Shown piece after piece: positions 14,340-64,000 of a stretch of DNA of 64,000 nt. The DNA lies in assembly GCA_016946835.1 (NCBI GenBank), contig JACVTC010000001.1, forward strand, positions 1,442,501-1,506,500. The letters run 5' to 3'. This DNA comes from Neocallimastix lanati (nom. inval.). Its lineage: Eukaryota > Neocallimastigomycota > Neocallimastigomycetes > Neocallimastigales > Neocallimastigaceae. Under the pieces are notes generated by a model that worked only from the letters and a program-made list of their open reading frames with translations, was not told where the DNA came from and ran no database searches. Numbering within the stretch: the stretch's first letter is position 1; each line of letters begins with the position of its first letter. The translations under genes were made by a program, and so were the position numbers.

Positions 14340-14494
14340 TAAAAATATGTCAAATTCTCCAATATTCGGAATCTTTTAATATTATGAAAGGAGTTAGACA
14401 AGGTTGCCCACTATCACCAATTCTTTACAATCTTTTTATTAATGACATTTTTAATGATGTTTCAGAGCGTCGACGTCGTACTGATAAGGCATAA
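14340..14494 (+). mobile_element. LINE fragment: RT box joined to terminal box
   Basis: The frame ending at TAA 14492-14494 reads FNIMKGVRQGCPLSPILYN then LFINDIFNDV. This is the reverse transcriptase block just before the catalytic FADD. It runs without interruption into SERRRRTDKA, whose DNA (14464-14491) is the GC-rich terminal box found at the ends of the other copies. Everything between the RT block and the end of the ORF, several hundred codons, is missing. It is read in a different frame from the box in the longer copies. Confidence 0.7.
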
Positions 14495-17266
14495 TGATAA
14501 TACAGGATCGTCCTCTATATCCTGCTTATATTAAGAAATTATCACATGAAAAACATTTATTTTATAAAAGGATTAAAAATTTTAAACTTAGTAATGATTT
14601 GTCTAATCTTCAAGAATTTTGTGATCTCTCAAAAGAATATAGAGTTCTTTCTGATTATATCATTAGTATTAAAAGAAATATTAGGATTATTAGATTTAAA
14701 AATTTGATTCATTCCATCGGCGAATGTTTCTTAAAAAATGATGCCCAGCGTGGTTGGTCTGGACTTAAGAAAATCTCTAAACCTTCTTACTCTCCTTCCC
14801 AATCACCTGTATACATTAAAGATAAAGAAGGTAATGTTCTAGTATCTCAAGAAGATCAACTCAATCGTTTTGCAAAACACTATGAAGAACTTGCTTCTGA
14901 TATAACTGGTCACAGTCTTAATGAAAATTATTGGAAAAGAATACTTAATAATTCTTCTACTCCTCAGGAATCATGGGATATTAATCAACCTATTTCCATG
15001 TCAGAAATTCATTCAACTGTTCTTTCAATGAAAAATAACAAAGCACCTGGTCCTGATGGTATACCTACAGAATTTTTTAAAGCATTTTTTAATTCTGAGA
15101 GTAGTACTTCTTCTCAGGATGACTCTAATCAAGAGGTTACTTATTCCGATTGTGCAAAGTGTCTGTTATTACTTTTTAATAAAATTTGGGATGGTGACTT
15201 TCCTAATGAATGGAACTCTGCTTCTATTGTTTCTATTCCTAAAAAAGGGGATCTTTCAGATTGTAATAATTATCGTAGTATTTCACTCATCAATGTAGGT
15301 TTAAAAATTCTATCAAAAATTGTCACTAAAAGAATATCGGACTATGCTTTTTCTAATGGAATAATTAGACCTGAACAGTTTGGTTTTAGAAATAAAGAAG
15401 AATGTATTAGTTTATTTGTATCCATTCGTGAAATTTGTCAAAGAAGAAAATTTAAGGATAAATTTACCTTTCTTGCCTTTCTTGACTTTAAAAAAGCTTA
15501 TGATTCAGTTCCAATTTACAATATACTTACTAAACTAAATAATCTTGGTATTCGTGGTAAATGCCTTCAATTCATTACTAATCTTTACCTTACCTCGAAA
15601 GCTCGTGTAAACTTTAATGGTAAACTTTCAAAAGAATTTCCAATACACCGTGGTGTTCGCCAAGGGTGTCCTCTCTCACCTATTTTATTCAATATATTTA
15701 TCAATGATATTTTTGATAAATGTAAAAGTTAGGGTGTGATTACTGAAAAGAAAAAGTGTTGTGGTGGATTATTTGCTGATGATATTGTATTATTAGCTCC
15801 TACAAAATCTTCACTTAAAAACCTTTTGAATATCGCTCATGATTGGGGTATTAAAAATGAAATGACCTTTGGAATCAATAAATGCGCTACACTAGTTGTT
15901 AAACCAAAGAATTTTATACCTTCAAGACATTATGAAAATCCTACTTTTAGACTTGGTATGAACTATATACCAAGCACTAATCAATATACATATCTTGGTA
16001 TACCTTTTAATGAATCGTTGGATTTAAAACCTATTATTGCTAAGATGAATAATAAAATTAATTATACAGTTAACTCTTTCTTTAGATTTTTAACCAATAG
16101 GAATGTTCCTTTCTACTTTAAAACTCGTATACTAGTTTCTTTTGTCCTTAGTTCAGTTCTTTATTATGCTCCCTTACTTGGTTCAAATAAAAAGAATACT
16201 GAAAAAGCTCAAACTGCTTTTAATCGAGGTTTGTATTGGAGTTTCGGGTTTAAAAATAAAACCTCCAATACTTCAATTTACAATATGTCTAAGGAACTTT
16301 CTATACCTCCTATAGCTAGTCTTTGTGCTAAGGCGATGATTCGATGCTTTAAAAAGTGGAAAGATTCTTCTTGTATTATTTCTCATTTAGTCAAAAATAT
16401 ACCTACACTTTTTCACTATTCATGGACGAAAAAAGCACGGAATTTAGCAGTACACAAGCACAATAATAAACTTCCTGGAGAAATAAGGAAGTTTTACTGG
16501 GAAAATATTCATTACTCAAGCACTCCTGCGATCAGATCTACAAAATACAAGAAATTTAAATATGGTTTTAAAAAATTTATTCAACGTCTATCACTTAAAT
16601 ATTCACAATTTTCTCTTGGATTTTTTTGGATTGGACGAATTAAATGTGGATTCAAATTTGATGTAAAAACGTATGTTAAAAGTAATCTAGTATAAAAAAA
16701 TTGCCCAACATACTGCCCTTGTTGTGGTGAGAGTAACAGCATACCTAGTTTTACACACTGGATACTTTTATGTCCTAAATTTGAAGAATTTAGGCAACAT
16801 TTCATTCCCTTTGTTGATGAAATTTTTATTAATTTTTCTCTAATTGTTCATGAGAAATCATTGAACATTCCTGATGATAAAGAGGAAGATTTTGATGATA
16901 ATATCAATTTTTACGTGCTGTGTCTCCTTCTTGGCGGAAATGCAGTATTTGAAATCTTAAAGATCGGCTCGGGGGAAAGAAGGCGATTTATTAATAATAT
17001 TTTTCAATCACCTTCGAACGAGTCTTCTTTCCCGATTTCATATTTTGTGGGGCTTGCGGAATTCCTTACTAACGTTATGCCTATTGTGATTGGAGATTTT
17101 TACACCATGATCGATTTGTATAGTGTTAGACCTACCGTTGTCAAGAGCGTCGACGTCGTAACGATAAGGCAAAGAAGAAATTCTGATACAGATTCGAATG
17201 ATAAGAGTTATCTTCGATGAATGGGAAGAGTTAGAGGCCTTTTCGTCCTCGAATCTCATAACGTAG
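14494..17266 (+). pseudogene. LINE reverse transcriptase ORF, broken by two stops and a frameshift
   Basis: The longest copy. One frame runs from 14494 to 17220, interrupted by TAG at 15730-15732 and TAA at 16693-16695. It then shifts by one base near 17200 to reach the matching C-terminal end (EEW-type block) at about 17266. Content in order: linker and thumb-proximal region, NNKAPGPDGIPTEF, SLINVGLKILSKIVTKR, PEQFGFR, FLDFKKAYDSV, HRGVRQGCPLSPILFNIFIN, catalytic GLFADDIVLLAP, TYLGIPF, a CCHC zinc knuckle Cx2Cx10Hx4C at about 16714-16773, a LLGG block, and YFVGLAEFLTNV. The 3' UTR ends in a 38-base poly-A at 17369-17406. The N-terminal endonuclease is absent; the apparent start ATG at 14494 is simply the first one after the junction. 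Non-functional as it stands. Confidence 0.88.
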
Positions 17267-17363
17267 TTTTTTAATATTAATATAAAAAAAAAAAAATTTC
17301 ATGTATTTAAACTTCATGTATTTCTTAAAAAAAAAAATATTATTAAATAAAGTTTATTCCTAG

Positions 17364-17406
<43 letters not shown>

Positions 17407-17409
<3 letters not shown>

Positions 17410-18322
17410 CTGAGAAAACTAGAGAATATCTTAAGCTAAATTATAAATATCCTGAATTTAGCATTGGCTTCCGATGGGTACTTCGTGCCAGATGTGGATA
17501 TAAATTCGATGCTCGTGTTGCCAAAGACGCCAAAATGATTGAAGAAGACTGTCCTGAAAGGTGTCCTTGTTGTTATTGAAAAGATAGTAATCCTCGATTG
17601 GAACATTGGTTTTCTAAATGCTATCTTTTCCGTGAATTTCGAATGAAATATTTTAAGGATATTGAAATTCTTTATGAAATATTTTATATTATTTTAAAAT
17701 ATTGTCCAATATCTAATAGTAATGTAGACACTTTTATCACAGATATGATTAATATAGAATTAAGTTCTGATTCTGATAGTAGTAACGAAGTATATAATAT
17801 TAATAATATTAACAATAGAAATAATATTGTTAATAATAGTAGAAATAGTGATAGTGTAAATAGAATTATTAATATTAGAAATAGTGAAAATTATAATATC
17901 GTTACTTCTAATTCAGTGAATAGTTCAATTGGTGAAAATCGTGGTAATTTAAGTAATTTTCTGAATAATGAGTGTGTAAATATATATGTGACGTGTTACC
18001 GATTGTATAACTTTCTTCTTGGTGGAAGGGATGCAGATATAATAGATTTAAATTATAAAAAGGAATGGAATATTTTGTTTAAGAACCAAATTATTTCTGG
18101 TGATTATTCAAAAACGCCGTTCTTGGTGCGATCTGTGGCTCTCTTTACAGAAATTATGCCTCGGGCTAGTACTCGGTAAGGGTTACTATTCCGAAAGTAT
18201 AAGCCCAAACTAACCAGGAGCGTCAACGCTGAAAATGCAGTAAGACAGGCTAGCAGGGCCAATGCCTCTGAAGGAGAAGACCATAATTTCTTTAAAAAGA
18301 TTATTCTCTGAAGAATTTTCAA
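17407..18322 (+). pseudogene. 5'-truncated LINE C-terminal fragment, second subfamily
   Basis: It begins directly after the poly-A of the preceding copy. It reads SEKTREYLKLNYKYPEF, then FRWVLRARCGYKFDA, then a CCHC-type knuckle (CPERCPCC... HWFSKC) with a TGA at 17577-17579. An Asn/Ser-rich insertion follows, not present in the other copies, then YNFLLGGRDADII and PFLVRSVALFTEIMP. After a TAA at 18177-18179 the same frame continues TRSVNAENAVRQASRANASEG to about 18294. The knuckle, LLGG block and terminal SVNAE box match the other copies in order. No poly-A follows; it is joined directly to the next fragment. Confidence 0.75.
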
Positions 18323-20098
18323 TTAATCAGGATGCTAGACAAGGATGCCATCTCTCTCCTATTTTATTCAATTTGTTCATTAATGATGTACTGGATAATT
18401 GTGATAAGTATGGTTGTATATTTAGATTCTCAATACTGTTGTAGTGGACTTTTTGCGGATGATATTGTTTTAGTTGCTCCATCTAAACAAGCTCTTAAGA
18501 AAATTTTGAATAAGGTTTATGAATGGGCTATTAAAAATGAAATGACTTTTGGAATTAATAAGTGTGCTACTCTTGTTGTAAAACCTATTAACTTTGTTAA
18601 ACCGATAAATTATGAAGATCCATCTTTCTTTATTGGTAGTAACAAATTACCTAAAACTGACAACTATACTTATCTTGGTATTCCTTTTGATGAATCTTTA
18701 TCATTGAAACCTATACAATCCAAATTAAACAGTAATTTAAATGTTAAGTTAAATTCGTTCTTTCGATTTCTTATTAATAAATCTATTCCTCTCTTATTGA
18801 ATATGTTTTAATTTCCTTTATTCTTAGTCTTGCTTTATATTATTATGCTCCTCTCTTTGGTTCAAACAAGAGCAGATGCTCTAAAGCTCAAAAAAAAAAA
18901 ATTACTAATCGAGGACTTTATCGGAGTTATGGATTTAAATCTTGTAATTCTTATGTTAGTCTCTATGATATTACTCTTGAATTGAGAATACCTCCTCTTT
19001 CAGCTATCTGTGCTATATCTCAATTAATGCTGCTTTAGAAAATGGAAAAAATTCATCATGTATTATTAATTATCTCATTAATAATATTCCAACTATGTCA
19101 CATTACTTATTGGACTAAAGAATCAAGGACTTTAGATAAGAAATTAAATGGTAAAAAAACAAGTGAAATAAAATAGTTTTATTGGGAAAGAGATGTTTTT
19201 CAAACCCTCAAAAGCTAAAAAAGCAATTATTTACAAGGAGAATGATTTTGGATTTATTTCAGAAATCAGAAACTTAACTTTTCAATATCCTAAGTATCAA
19301 TTGGGATTCTTTTGGATTTCTCGAATTAGGTGTGGTTTTAAATTTGACATTAGTATTTCCATTAAAAGAAAAATCGTTTCAGAAGATTGCCCTAAATGTT
19401 GCCCTTGTTGTGGTGTTAGTGTAACTAGCTTTTCTCATTGGATCTTTGCCTGTAAAGAATTGGAAAATTACAGAAATAAATCTTTACCTTTTCTAGATGA
19501 TCTCTTTTTGAAGTTTGCAATGATAATTGAACAAAAATCCTTGGTTGTTTCTTTAGATTCAGAAAAGGATTATGATAATAATATTTATTATTATATATTG
19601 AGTGCACTTCTTGGTGGGCGTTCAATATATTCAAAAATTAAAGTTAATAATGGGGAACAAAGACAATTAGTTGACAATATTTTTAAACAAAGTTCAACTT
19701 CGTCAACTGTTCCGTATTTTGTGGGGATTGCGGAGTTTCTAACAAACGTAATACCATTAATTTGTCAATCTTTTAGTTTGATGATGAAATGGTATTCCGT
19801 TGAATCTACCGTTGCCAAGAGCGTCGACGTCGAAATGATAAGGCATGGATTTTCACCTCCAGATACAGATTCGATTGATAACACTAATACTGAAATTATT
19901 ACTCACAATAATGGACGTGGTGTTATTATCGAGGAATGGGAAAAGTTAGAGGCTATTGCTTCTAACGCACTTTTCTAATTTTATAATATATAATATTTTA
20001 TTTCATGTATTTTATTTGTTATTTTTTCATTTAATTTCATGTAATTTTATTATTATTATAAATTAAATAAAGTTTTCTCTAAGTCCAAAAAAAAAAAA
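18295..20098 (+). pseudogene. 5'-truncated LINE with RT, zinc knuckle and poly-A
   Basis: Starts inside the RT domain (EEFSINQDARQGCHLSP, ILFNLFINDVLDNC). It shifts frame near 18435 to CCSGLFADDIVLVAPSK and is further shifted and eroded between 18811 and 19190. From 19193 to 19978 it is open, with YQLGFFWISRIRCGFKFD, the CCHC knuckle CCPCCGVSVTSFSHWIFAC (Cx2Cx8Hx4C), LLGGRS, VPYFVGIAEFLTNV, AKSVDVEMIRHG and EEWEKLEAIASNALF. The 3' UTR ends AATAAAGTTTTCTCTAAGTCC plus poly-A at 20098. The RT half is a pseudogene; the C-terminal 261 codons are intact. Confidence 0.82.
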
Positions 20099-20289
20099 AC
20101 TTTTGAACTTATTTTTTATTCTTTATTACATTACATTAAATTTTTATGATTAATTAAAATTTGTTTTTTTTTATTATTATTTTTTATTTTAATCTTTTAC
20201 TTAACATTAAAAAATGTAATACATAAAAATATAATTATCTATTTAATAAAGTATTGGAAGTGTATTCTCTTCCTAGTCTAAAAAAAAAG
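20099..20289 (+). mobile_element. LINE 3' end only
   Basis: A short AT-rich segment ending in the shared 3' signature CTCTTCCTAGTCT followed by an A-run. No coding sequence survives. It is interpreted as a severely 5'-truncated insertion of the same LINE family. Confidence 0.55.
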
Positions 20290-20673
20290 GCTAGCAGGGC
20301 AAATGCCTTTGAAGGAAAAGACTATAATTTCTATCAGATAGTCAATTCAAACTCTAATCCATAAAGAATTGAAGGAAAAGACTATAATTTCTATCAGATA
20401 GTCAATTCAAACTCTAATCCATAAAGAAATGAGGTTCGTTGCATATGAACTTTTTTCTAAATTTATTTATACATTTAATTTTGGATATTACTTTTTATTT
20501 AACGTAATTTATTTTAAATATTATTAAGTTCTAATTAGACAAATGATATTTACTTTTTTATTAATTCTTTGTTTTTAATTTTAAAATTAAATATATTCAT
20601 GTAATTAATAAACTAATAAATAAATAAAAATTAAAGTTCCCAATAATTGCAGCTGTAAAAAAAAAAAAAAAAT
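20289..20673 (+). mobile_element. LINE C-terminal tail plus 3' UTR
   Basis: Begins with KASRANAFEGKDYNFYQIV, which matches the C-terminal tail of the 17407-18294 fragment (QASRANASEGEDHNFF). It then stops, carries a 60-bp tandem duplication, and ends in a poly-A at about 20656-20673 preceded by GTTCCCAATAATTGCAGCTG. This 3' end differs from the CTAGTCT tails, consistent with a second subfamily. Confidence 0.6.
20309..20428 (+). repeat. Perfect 60-bp tandem duplication
   Basis: 20309-20368 and 20369-20428 are identical. The unit carries the codons for the tail EGKDYNFYQIVNSNSNP and its stop, so the tail is encoded twice, with the second copy after a stop codon. It looks recent because no base differs. 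Confidence 0.95.
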
Positions 20674-21365
20674 TAAAGAAAAAAAAAATAGTGGATTTTT
20701 AGCTTTAGATGAGCTACAATTTAATACTGAGGAACTAAGACATTTAAAAAGAACTTCTATTAAAGAGTTCTCTGTCTATATAGTTAGTCTCGCGGATTAA
20801 TTAAATAGTACTAAACCAGCAATTAGAAGCTTTTTTGAGTTATTCTTTCATTAGTTATAGTAAAAAAAACCCTTCACAACCAAGAGAGTCAACGTCGAAC
20901 TGACAATGGAAATGAAGAACCTTTACTACTAGCCATTCTAGTACATCAAACACAAATATTATTATTTTTTACACAATAAATTAACGGAAATTGAATTTCT
21001 TGAGAAGGAAATAAGGTAAACTTCTTACAACATCTTTTGATAATATTTCTCTTGGTTTGAGGGAGAGTTTAGTGGTTTCCACACTATCTACTTTACTGAT
21101 GTTACTTCTTTGCTTTATTTTTATTAAAACATTTTGGAATAAAATAATTTCTATTCGTATCATGATACCATAATAACTTTTAAGTTTTCTCTTTAATTTC
21201 ATTATATTTAATTTTATTTTTTTATTAAATTTTATTTCTAATATTTTTTTATTTGATATATTTTTTAATATATATATGTACTTATTTATAATGCATTTTT
21301 GCAATTAATATTAAATAATTAAAAATAAAGAAATATAAGTGTAATCTCTTCCTAGTCTAAAAAGA
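20674..21365 (+). mobile_element. Eroded LINE 3' fragment
   Basis: Contains a GC-rich box AGAGAGTCAACGTCG at about 20883-20897, in the frame TKRVNVELTM, like SVDV in other copies. Several frame breaks are present. The 3' end is CTCTTCCTAGTCT followed by an A-rich run at about 21345-21365. The minus-strand open frame at 20981-21304 is not supported as a gene. Confidence 0.55.
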
Positions 21366-28152: not shown

Positions 28153-28295
28153 GTAATAATAATTAAATGACTCGAGTTTCGTCATCAGTAAAGCAAATAT
28201 AATTCAAGTTTGTATTTATGTTTCCTTTGGTAAACAGCCATTAAAAATTAATATATAGATAAATAAATAATAAATTTTAACTAATGATAATTTAC

Positions 28296-28500
28296 AGTTT
28301 CCAGCTCCTCTAGGATGGCAAGGAGGTGACCCATAGTGGGCTTTACTTTCCCTTGAGGATTGCCTAGAGTGCTTCTATACTGGTGTTTCTTTGTTTATGG
28401 GGGGTTGCGAGAGTCGACGCTGTACCGGTATGGCAGTTAAACATTCACCCATATTATATGGGGGAGACATAAGTCTTCAGTCTATAAAATAAAAAAAAAA
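28296..28500 (+). mobile_element. GC-rich poly-A-tailed island, probable retroelement 3' end
   Basis: About 190 bases of near-balanced composition between simple repeats, ending CAGTCTATAAAAT and an A-run at 28485-28500. This resembles the LINE 3' ends of the 14-21 kb array (CTAGTCT plus A). It contains GAGAGTCGACGCTGTACCGG at 28410-28429, matching the GC-rich terminal box of those LINEs. One frame is open across the whole island except for a single TAG, reading FPAPLGWQGGDP, stop, WALLSLEDCLECFYTGVS, then MGGCESRRCTGMAV, and closing at TAA before the A-run. Interpreted as a 5'-truncated LINE tail or a short non-autonomous (SINE-like) derivative. Confidence 0.6.
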
Positions 28501-62703: not shown

Positions 62704-64000
62704 ATGTTATCAAACACTGTTAAAAAATCTATTGTTGCACCAATAACAAGTGCTACTGGTGTTACTTTAAGCACTACCTGTAAATTATCAAATATAACTA
62801 AAACTAGTACTATTAAAAGGTATAATAAAATATAATGATTTATAAATATTATTAATTATCATATTCAAATAGTTTTAATACTTAAAAATATTGGATATAG
62901 TTATTTTACGCGTAATATAAATCTAATAAAAGCGAAAAATATATAATAAAATAGTTTTAATAAATATATTATTTATTTGTACATTTGCACTTATAAAAAA
63001 AAAAGAGATAGAAATATTAATTAGTAATAAAATGTATTATTAATTGAATATGAATATATTGAATAATAAAACCAATATAAAAATGATATAGTATAAATAT
63101 TATAATATTTAGAGAGAAATATTTAATATTTTAAAAATAATGTATTAATATCTTTTATTTTTTAAAAAAAAATATTAAAAATTATTTAAAAGATTATTAA
63201 GTACTACTTTAAAACCAAATGAATCAAAGTCAATAAATAGCAAAATTAAGTATCAACAAAATCAAAAATTAACTACCTCTGCTGCTGTTGCACCACAAGA
63301 TAAAGATGACGAAGATTATGAAGATGCATTCATTGGAATGACAGGTGGTGAAATTTTACATGAAATGTTAAAACGTCATAATGTAAAACACGTTTTTGGA
63401 TACCCAGGTGGTGCTATACTTCCAATTATGGATGCTATTTATGAAACAGATCAATTTGAATTTGTTTTACCAAGACATGAACAAGGAGCAGGTCATATGG
63501 CTGAAGGTTATGCACGTGCAAGGTAAATATTATTAATGTATTAACCTTTTTTTTCTTTTGTAATGTAGAAAAAATAAACTTAATAATATTAATAGACGAA
63601 ATTACTAATTTATTGGTGTAATATTAAATTTTTAAAATAAAGTGGTAACGTTGGTGTTGCCATTGTTACTTCTGGTCCAGGTGCAACAAATATTATTACA
63701 CCATTACAAGATGCTTATTCTGACGGTATTCCAATGGTTGTATTTTCAGGTCAAGTTCCAAATGCTTCAATTGGTACTGATGCTTTCCAAGAAGCAGATG
63801 TTGTTGGTATTAGTAGAGCTTGTACTAAATGGAATTGTATAGTTAAGGATATTCGTGAATTACCAAGAAGAATTAATGAAGCATTCCATATTGCTACTTC
63901 GGGAAGACCAGGTCCTGTTTTAATTGATTTACCTAAGGATGTTACTGCCGGAGTTTTAAAGAAGCCAATTAATGGATTTCAAGTTAGAATACCATCTATT
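62704..64000 (+). CDS. ILV2: Acetolactate (acetohydroxyacid) synthase catalytic subunit, 5' part
   Basis: Condenses pyruvate with pyruvate or 2-oxobutyrate in branched-chain amino acid synthesis; uses thiamine diphosphate and FAD. Exons seen: 62704-62819, 63193-63522, 63643 to the window end; the donors GTATAA and GTAAAT and the phases (2, 2) fit. The 268 visible residues start with a leader ([20 protein letters not shown]), basic and Ser/Thr-rich with no acidic residue. A variable linker with an acidic patch follows. The enzyme begins at [14 protein letters not shown] and includes [32 protein letters not shown] (catalytic Glu that activates the cofactor), [36 protein letters not shown] and [15 protein letters not shown]. 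The leader indicates import into a mitochondrion-derived organelle, here presumably the hydrogenosome (inference). The C-terminal half, with the ThDP GDG motif, lies beyond the window. Confidence 0.96.

Follow-up and report, generated by a model that had tools for sequence, protein, structure and literature searches.

Introduction

It is well established that short interspersed elements (SINEs) share 3' tails with long interspersed elements (LINEs), and that these tails contain stem-loops (PMC4176376, PMC3747384). Here we describe a conserved box in Neocallimastix lanati, first seen in a very AT-rich stretch of 64,000 nt (the window; bases 1442501-1506500 of contig C1) of an AT-rich genome of 199 Mb in 762 contigs. 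Compared with the known shared tails, the difference is that the shared hairpin sits inside the LINE open reading frame (ORF), apart from the terminus, and that three SINE families of the same genome have related hairpins. In the stringent pairs of eel UnaL2 and zebrafish ZfL2-1 and ZfL2-2, the SINE and the LINE likewise share a 3' tail, the LINE protein reads a stem-loop in the tail of the LINE and the tails differ among LINEs; on these points, as given in the sections of the article that treat them, we liken the box to them (PMC4176376). Their tail lies in the 3' untranslated region (3'UTR), as those same sections have it (PMC4176376), whereas the main shared hairpin here is part of the LINE ORF and stands some way from the terminus.

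The L1-clade pairs described from plants and green algae, namely maize ZmSINE2/3 with a monocot L1 and Chlamydomonas SINEX-3_CR with L1-1_CR, resemble our elements in having an L1-clade LINE, a 3' hairpin with a variable stem and a conserved flank, and poly(A) ends. According to the part of the study that deals with them, these pairs share their last 45-80 nt (PMC3747384), whereas we find a separate coding-region hairpin and a short terminal motif. For human L1 and Alu, too, a stem-loop common to LINE and SINE was proposed as the recognition signal of the reverse transcriptase (RT); in the portion of the paper concerned, that stem-loop is placed in the 3'UTR (PMC5135761), unlike the ORF hairpin here.

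In the open-licence literature we found no description of such an ORF box shared with SINEs, nor of one in work on the LINEs and SINEs of fungi or anaerobic fungi. In R2, a 5' RNA that overlaps the ORF binds the R2 protein; this 5'-end element of the ORF is not known to be shared with SINEs. Our box is alike in being structured LINE RNA that overlaps coding sequence, but it lies near the 3' end of the ORF and is shared with SINEs. Candida albicans is the host of Zorro3. As a fungal L1-clade element, Zorro3 is comparable to the LINEs described below by its description, so far as the source sections go, and not by its sequence; these sections mention neither a SINE partner nor a hairpin in coding sequence (PMC3510499).

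Occurrence of the box

The sequence AGAGCGTCGACGTCG stands at 14464, 17144 and 19818, with a two-mismatch copy at 20883, while shuffles of the window average 0.01 such matches; diverged versions are present at 18216 and 28410. All of these had been listed in an earlier note made from the letters of the window. With at most one mismatch, CGTCGACG occurs six times in the window against 0.15 expected. Genome-wide, the original form of the box, GAGNGTCGACGNYGN{2,6}GATAAGGCA, has 956 matches and a relaxed pattern 2310, each against none for the reversed control, and GCGTCGACG has 1647 against 41 in the control, palindromic GCGTCGACGC sites being counted twice. These copy numbers are counts of places: since some genome stretches are present twice in the assembly (L049 and L057, with identical flanks), the places are not all independent insertions.

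The carriers are the ORFs of five LINE families (A, B, C, D and D2) and non-ORF copies in three SINE families (SINE1, SINE2 and SINE3), so that the copies outside LINEs that the earlier note had proposed to look for do exist. Seven of eight further GCGTCGACG places resembled, on reading, LINE variants. Once, GCGTCGACG was seen by eye in coding-looking sequence resembling an LTR-element gene (L097, C1:3824720-3824880), which is probably a chance match. The A/B/C/SINE1 box, sought as an exact pattern in IMG/VR and GTDB contigs, gave 0 matches, and an Rfam search of the window gave no match reaching the gathering score.

Codon positions in the box

In the 11 A, B and C loci that were translated, every box preceded by LINE sequence is read in one frame as KSVDV..IR. 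The reading in a different frame that had been put forward for the copies at 14.47 and 28.4 kb therefore does not hold: the former is a rearranged fragment, which removes the argument from frame independence there, and the latter lies in a non-coding SINE1 and has no reading frame. The families that end with the box in this one frame are A (L016 is an example), B (14.5-17.3 kb) and C (18.3-20.0 kb); for the codon comparison, a single copy from each was aligned over its C-terminal codons. No third position varies in the box (0/10), against 127/178 upstream (Fisher 7.6e-6), whereas 5 of 20 first and second positions do; variation concentrated at third positions, which the earlier note had named as the mark of a mere conserved peptide, is thus not what the box displays. 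It is the sole window without a third-position change among 173 ten-codon windows, and random codon draws for the observed amino acids gave at least two variable third positions in 200,000 of 200,000 trials. By comparison, the conserved peptide VGLAEFLTN, about 30 codons upstream of the box, varies at seven of nine third positions.

Conserved amino acids (Met and Trp left aside) keep the same codon in 7/7 cases in the box against 23/55 outside it. Six of these seven codons end in G or C, though the third-position GC content of the ORFs is 22.5-25.4%, and the box retains rarer codons: AGC makes up 7% of Ser codons, GTC 15% of Val codons and GAC 18% of Asp codons. A, B and C agree without interruption over at most 17 nt, and this stretch falls in the box; pairwise identity, taken over 27-nt windows of the alignment, averages 52-61%. 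This third-position pattern is the opposite of a peptide-only signal; the box is under nucleotide-level constraint and is more than a peptide.

Hairpin and covariation

The predicted hairpin spans 27-30 nt and consists of 5' GAGC, an outer helix GNC:GNC, a 3x2 internal loop, an inner helix of four pairs (G13-U26 and three variable pairs) and a loop of 3-6 nt. Minimum-energy folds are nearly alike in the A, B, C, D, D2 and SINE2 boxes, with 3-5 pairs in the inner helix, and RNAalifold, unaided, predicts the common fold. In eight boxes, the common 7-bp hairpin is paired in 56 of 56 cells and has three doubly changed pairs. Two boxes were added, from SINE3 and a SINE1 subfamily (3 of the 100 listed places), with a looser search pattern in which columns 8, 14, 15, 23-25 and 30 were unconstrained and three of the seven pairs were set. 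In the resulting ten boxes, 70 of 70 cells pair, eight cells are doubly changed (0/500 shuffles) and covariation reaches 0.524 against 0.248 (0/500 shuffles), slid controls giving at most 0.079. At pair 15-24, C-G is found in A, B, C and young SINE1; D, D2 and SINE2 have U-A there, and SINE3 has A-U. For the LINEs, each of the two columns of this pair is a third codon position. Among the 100 listed places, which hold 25 distinct variants, 92 pair fully and eight have one broken pair.

An alternative arm, GYC(11-13):GGC, is the best fold for SINE1 alone and was set aside: D and D2 are unable to form it, whereas all ten boxes can form the common fold, which was therefore adopted. The palindrome CGTCGACG, which the earlier note had emphasized, is real in A, B, C and SINE1, but the emphasis was misplaced, since D, D2, SINE2 and SINE3 lack it; what the ten boxes have in common is the right half, TANGNCA, which is non-palindromic. 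The palindrome is thus not essential, and a function for it as such, or in RNA dimerisation, was rejected on the same grounds.

SINE families carrying the box

SINE1 is 412 nt long before its poly(A) and has at least 374 candidate places (40 scored), its young copies being about identical across 202 bp, with poly(A). Target-site duplications of 13-15 nt flank 8 of the 11 copies with an intact 5' start; in 108 crossed-flank controls the maximum was 9 nt, with 6/108 at 8 nt or more. The remaining three copies have 8-9 nt, within the control range, and two of them are one insertion seen twice. The insertion sites are ordinary A/T-rich sequence with duplications, not boxes. SINE2, found by a relaxed scan of loci, has the box GAGCGGCGAAGCTGATACAGTATGCCA and at least 585 candidate places; the 40 that were scored show about 100% identity across 291 or more of 306 bases, and target duplications were seen by eye for two copies. 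Its 3' end consists of one to three AAGTCTA units with no poly(A), unlike SINE1 and SINE3 (L090, minus strand; L061:2740-3045). SINE3 was found by a looser genome pattern, with at least 150 candidates, of which 40 were scored at 89-100%, and 47 of the 48 matches of a further scan are of SINE3 type.

The SINE heads hold separate B-box-like motifs, seen by eye (GGATCGACCCC, GGTTCGAATCC, GGTTCGACCCC), and the box itself was accordingly rejected as an RNA polymerase III B box. ARAGORN found no tRNA in eight SINE1 loci, nor did Rfam in one SINE1 and one SINE2 copy. The head half of SINE1 (L059) and of SINE3 (L106, L107) holds an intron-like block with CAG|GTARGTAT, CTATATYTCTAA and AG in matching order; one SINE1 copy (L037) is without it, and the match between the two SINEs is below the shuffle maximum (27 vs 29).

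Shared sequence and 3' ends

The best local match of SINE1 with LINE A, and likewise with LINE B, is the 28-nt box (scores 37 and 36; 3/1500 and 0/1500 shuffles as good, respectively). SINE1 and SINE2 match above the null at the box only (31 vs 27 in 300 shuffles). SINE3 has a 41-nt block in common with LINE D2, with a score of 50 against a null maximum of 32 (1000 shuffles) and a second-best match of 21. For the SINE2 box alone, the fraction of shuffles matching the LINEs as well ranges from 0.0005 (D2) to 0.06 (B).

Family A ends (five copies) and the B ends seen have GTCTA before poly(A), two family C ends have GTCTA and GTCCA, and SINE1 ends in AGTCTAT-An. The D2-type ends in the loci read CGTTA-An in seven of seven, box and end standing on one copy in L067, and the SINE3 end, GGTCGTTA-An, is of this CGTTA-An type; for family D, a single old copy read by eye ends in GCTGTA-An. 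The type of box and the terminus thus change together in two groups, A, B and C going with SINE1, and D2 with SINE3. The box of SINE1 lies 73 nt from the terminal motif; the distance is about 140 nt for SINE3, 226 nt for family B and about 365 nt for family A. Between box and terminus, SINE1 and LINE C have a clear further hairpin, whereas A and B have no clear one, and we therefore make no such claim for the LINEs.

LINE pieces in the window

The features of the window are collected in the table. That the box stands near the end of each LINE ORF, as had been claimed, does not hold at 14464, where it belongs to a displaced 58-nt piece of family A. This piece, with its box at 14465-14491 (C1:1456965-1456991), sits between an RT fragment and a family B ORF. 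The family B piece comprises the RT domain, a CCHC-like segment (by eye) and the C-terminus. Family D is a fourth family, with an identical box in two further copies; D2 is a fifth, adjoins B and A copies (L067, L021), has weak profile matches (1e-3, 6.5e-3) and encodes at its box a peptide still related to the KSV[DN] type. For the decayed copy at 20884, 39 other scored copies are 70-78% identical.

Table. Features of the window, in window coordinates
Feature	Position	Strand	Remarks
Displaced 58-nt family A piece	14464..14521	+	starts at box; 96.6% to A (L012, only locus 1500-1557)
LINE family B piece	14522..17220 (start approximate)	+	in-frame stops break ORF; RVT_1 1.3e-27
Family B box hairpin	17145..17171	+	in frame, KSVDVVTIRQ
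Family B 3' end CCTAGTCTA with poly(A)	17359..17407	+	
5'-truncated LINE family D piece	17408..18295 (3' limit approximate)	+	directly after B poly(A)
Family D box hairpin	18218..18247	+	GAGCGTCAACGCTGAAAATGCAGTAAGACA; KSVN-type peptide
LINE family C pieces	18296..19978 (start approximate)	+	upstream frames broken; final 268 aa open
Family C box hairpin	19819..19845	+	in frame, KSVDVEMIRH
9-bp hairpin, end of family C ORF	19945..19966	+	perfect, GTTAGAGGC/GCTTCTAAC, z -5.7
Decayed box, old copy	20884..20910	+	family A-like by eye, from downstream sequence
SINE1 copy, 3' half of element	28290..28490	+	no long + strand ORF listed; ends AGTCTATAAAA
SINE1 box hairpin	28409..28435	+	

We call these LINEs L1-like. 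Among solved structures, the one nearest to their RT domain is human L1 ORF2p (7e-32), against 1e-13 for R2. The longest copies have one frame of 1366-1385 aa, the copies seen end in poly(A), and in one copy (L099) the N-terminal region resembles an endonuclease (PF03372, 8e-5), its 22.9 bits falling narrowly short of the curated cut-off of 24.5. The LINE copies stand head to tail in the same direction (window 14464-20100; L016, L022, L003), each new 5'-truncated piece beginning right after the preceding poly(A), which suggests repeated insertion into LINE A-tails. In L009 (1490-1700), a LINE C-like fragment begins at the box, and its poly(A) starts within the loop of the ORF-end hairpin (GTTAGAGGCTA-An). 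A malic enzyme gene is also present in the window, as is a reading frame at 63179-64000, cut by the window end, that resembles acetolactate synthase.

Discussion

Based on these comparisons, we propose that L1-like LINEs have a two-part 3' recognition signal, one part of which is the hairpin embedded in the ORF, and that SINEs have captured this signal, an explanation that we consider probable. The hairpin and the short terminal motif (GTCTA-type or CGTTA-An) would together form the signal on the LINE RNA, which the LINE protein would use to select its own RNA for target-primed reverse transcription, priming at the poly(A) end; RNAs of SINEs that have the two parts would be accepted in trans, and SINEs would be mobilised because they carry the matching hairpin and terminus. 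Since the distance between hairpin and terminus varies, each part would be read as a module of its own. What the comparisons show is the constraint on nucleotides, the covariation, the presence of the box in SINEs, the agreement of termini in two LINE and SINE groups and the target-site duplications of SINE1. We infer that the hairpin forms in vivo, is bound by the LINE protein and is needed for retrotransposition, with the RT as its presumed recognising partner; the data suggest that the hairpin marks RNA for copying. Going further, the ORF hairpin could be a family-specific identity tag that gives the L1-like clade its template specificity, LINE and SINE groups being matched by hairpin type and terminus. 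We advance this only tentatively, at somewhat less than even chances. If it were true, a LINE could not easily alter the tag to escape its parasites, because the tag lies within coding sequence.

Several observations weigh against the proposal of a two-part signal. The KSV[DN] peptide is conserved too. Thermodynamically, the hairpin is weak, most z-scores being unremarkable (A/B/C, -2.9 to -4.1 kcal/mol with z of +0.3 to +0.9; D, -0.9; SINE2, -1.6; D2, -2.4 kcal/mol), and SINE1 alone favours another fold (z 0.0, +1.2), though the common fold is possible for it; the support is comparative. Within that comparison, the ten boxes are related and represent only about four independent compensatory events by a hand count made without a tree, and for the two added boxes the search pattern had pre-set three of the seven pairs. 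Two of the five measures were also reached by some shuffles: the three pairs changed on both sides were equalled in 22/500 shuffles, and the number of further pair types was reached in 400/500 shuffles for eight boxes (eight types, 47/500, for ten). One broken-pair variant of family A type recurs at two places; dead copies are expected to break pairs, and the variant may be a broken subfamily. As for sharing, the SINE1 box match is weak with LINE C (score 26; 63/1500 shuffles as good) and below the null with LINE D, full-length SINE2 has no match above the null with the five LINEs, and SINE3 has nothing above the null with SINE1 or SINE2. SINE2 stands outside the two-group scheme, since it combines GTCTA repeats with an inner helix like that of D. 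Terminal hairpins are found in A (z -2.6) and D (z -2.0) but are weak in SINE1 (z -1.5) and absent from B and C. In 16 SINE1 copies, conservation in the box is 0.911 against 0.935 elsewhere, so that the box is not favoured, although copy-level conservation inside SINE1 is uninformative. Our confidence is slightly lower on account of the broken-pair variant that recurs and of those matches of SINE2 and SINE3 that stay below the null.

Other accounts of the box have to be weighed against these same data. If it were only a conserved C-terminal LINE peptide, KSV[DN][VA]..[IV]R[HQ], with the SINE copies as relics of LINE coding sequence, the single frame in A, B and C and the related peptide even in D2 would be expected; we nevertheless regard this as very unlikely, since the third positions are frozen while amino acids change, the rarer codons AGC, GTC and GAC are retained, a nearby conserved peptide uses codons freely, compensatory change is found at two third codon positions and three SINE families keep the box without coding. 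The same third-position data, compensatory changes and non-coding SINE families bear out the view of the earlier note that the function lies in the nucleic acid itself, with a hairpin as its likeliest form, whereas the DNA-binding or integration site that it also offered found no support. To such a DNA-level element, a palindromic transcription-factor, silencing or integration site, we give very little credence: the palindrome of A, B, C and SINE1 and the tie of GCGTCGACG to these elements, LINE-like in seven of eight further places, would suit it, but D, D2, SINE2 and SINE3 are without the palindrome, the non-palindromic TANGNCA is common to ten boxes, the base pairs covary and SINE1 inserts into ordinary A/T-rich sequence rather than into boxes.

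Recent recombination or template switching could also have copied the box among LINE families and SINEs. The piece at 14464 is indeed a moved short fragment that begins at the box, and 2 of 17 family breakpoints (up to 1500 nt upstream, 30 loci) fall at the box, by count and with no formal test. Both flanks, however, have diverged among A, B and C, and the differences between groups of boxes are compensatory changes, which makes this the least probable of the accounts considered. On the same breakpoints, too few in number, we also rejected the box as an RT stop or junction hot spot; pairing with 28S rRNA was considered too and not adopted. A more serious competitor, though an unlikely one, is an RNA element with another partner, either a LINE RNA-binding protein other than the RT or a host factor acting in ribonucleoprotein assembly, export or stability. 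Any RNA-binding protein would tolerate a hairpin whose distance to the terminal motif ranges from 73 nt to about 365 nt; against this, box type and the extreme 3' terminus covary between D2/SINE3 and A/B/C/SINE1, which points to a single reader of the 3' end, as the two-part signal would have it.

Set beside the stringent pairs, shared 3' sequence is present for SINE1 with A and B and for SINE3 with D2 (41 nt), not above the null for SINE2, and there is a stem-loop with compensatory change, its folding energy being weak; the box, though, lies in the ORF and not in a terminal 3'UTR, and only a short terminal motif is at the end. In the passages of the 2014 article that concern L1, the way in which an L1-type RT chooses its own RNA (cis-preference) was called unknown, and mammalian L1 was treated as relaxed, reading mainly poly(A) (PMC4176376). 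Our findings suggest that searches for LINE and SINE partners confined to the 3'UTR can miss a shared signal. Human L1 template recognition is reportedly the subject of a newer structural study (PMC10830416). The box offers a compact, testable RNA with natural compensatory variants. In this genome, a tag that is specific and structured appears to be kept within the ORF by a group of L1-like LINEs, and SINE families carry that tag too.

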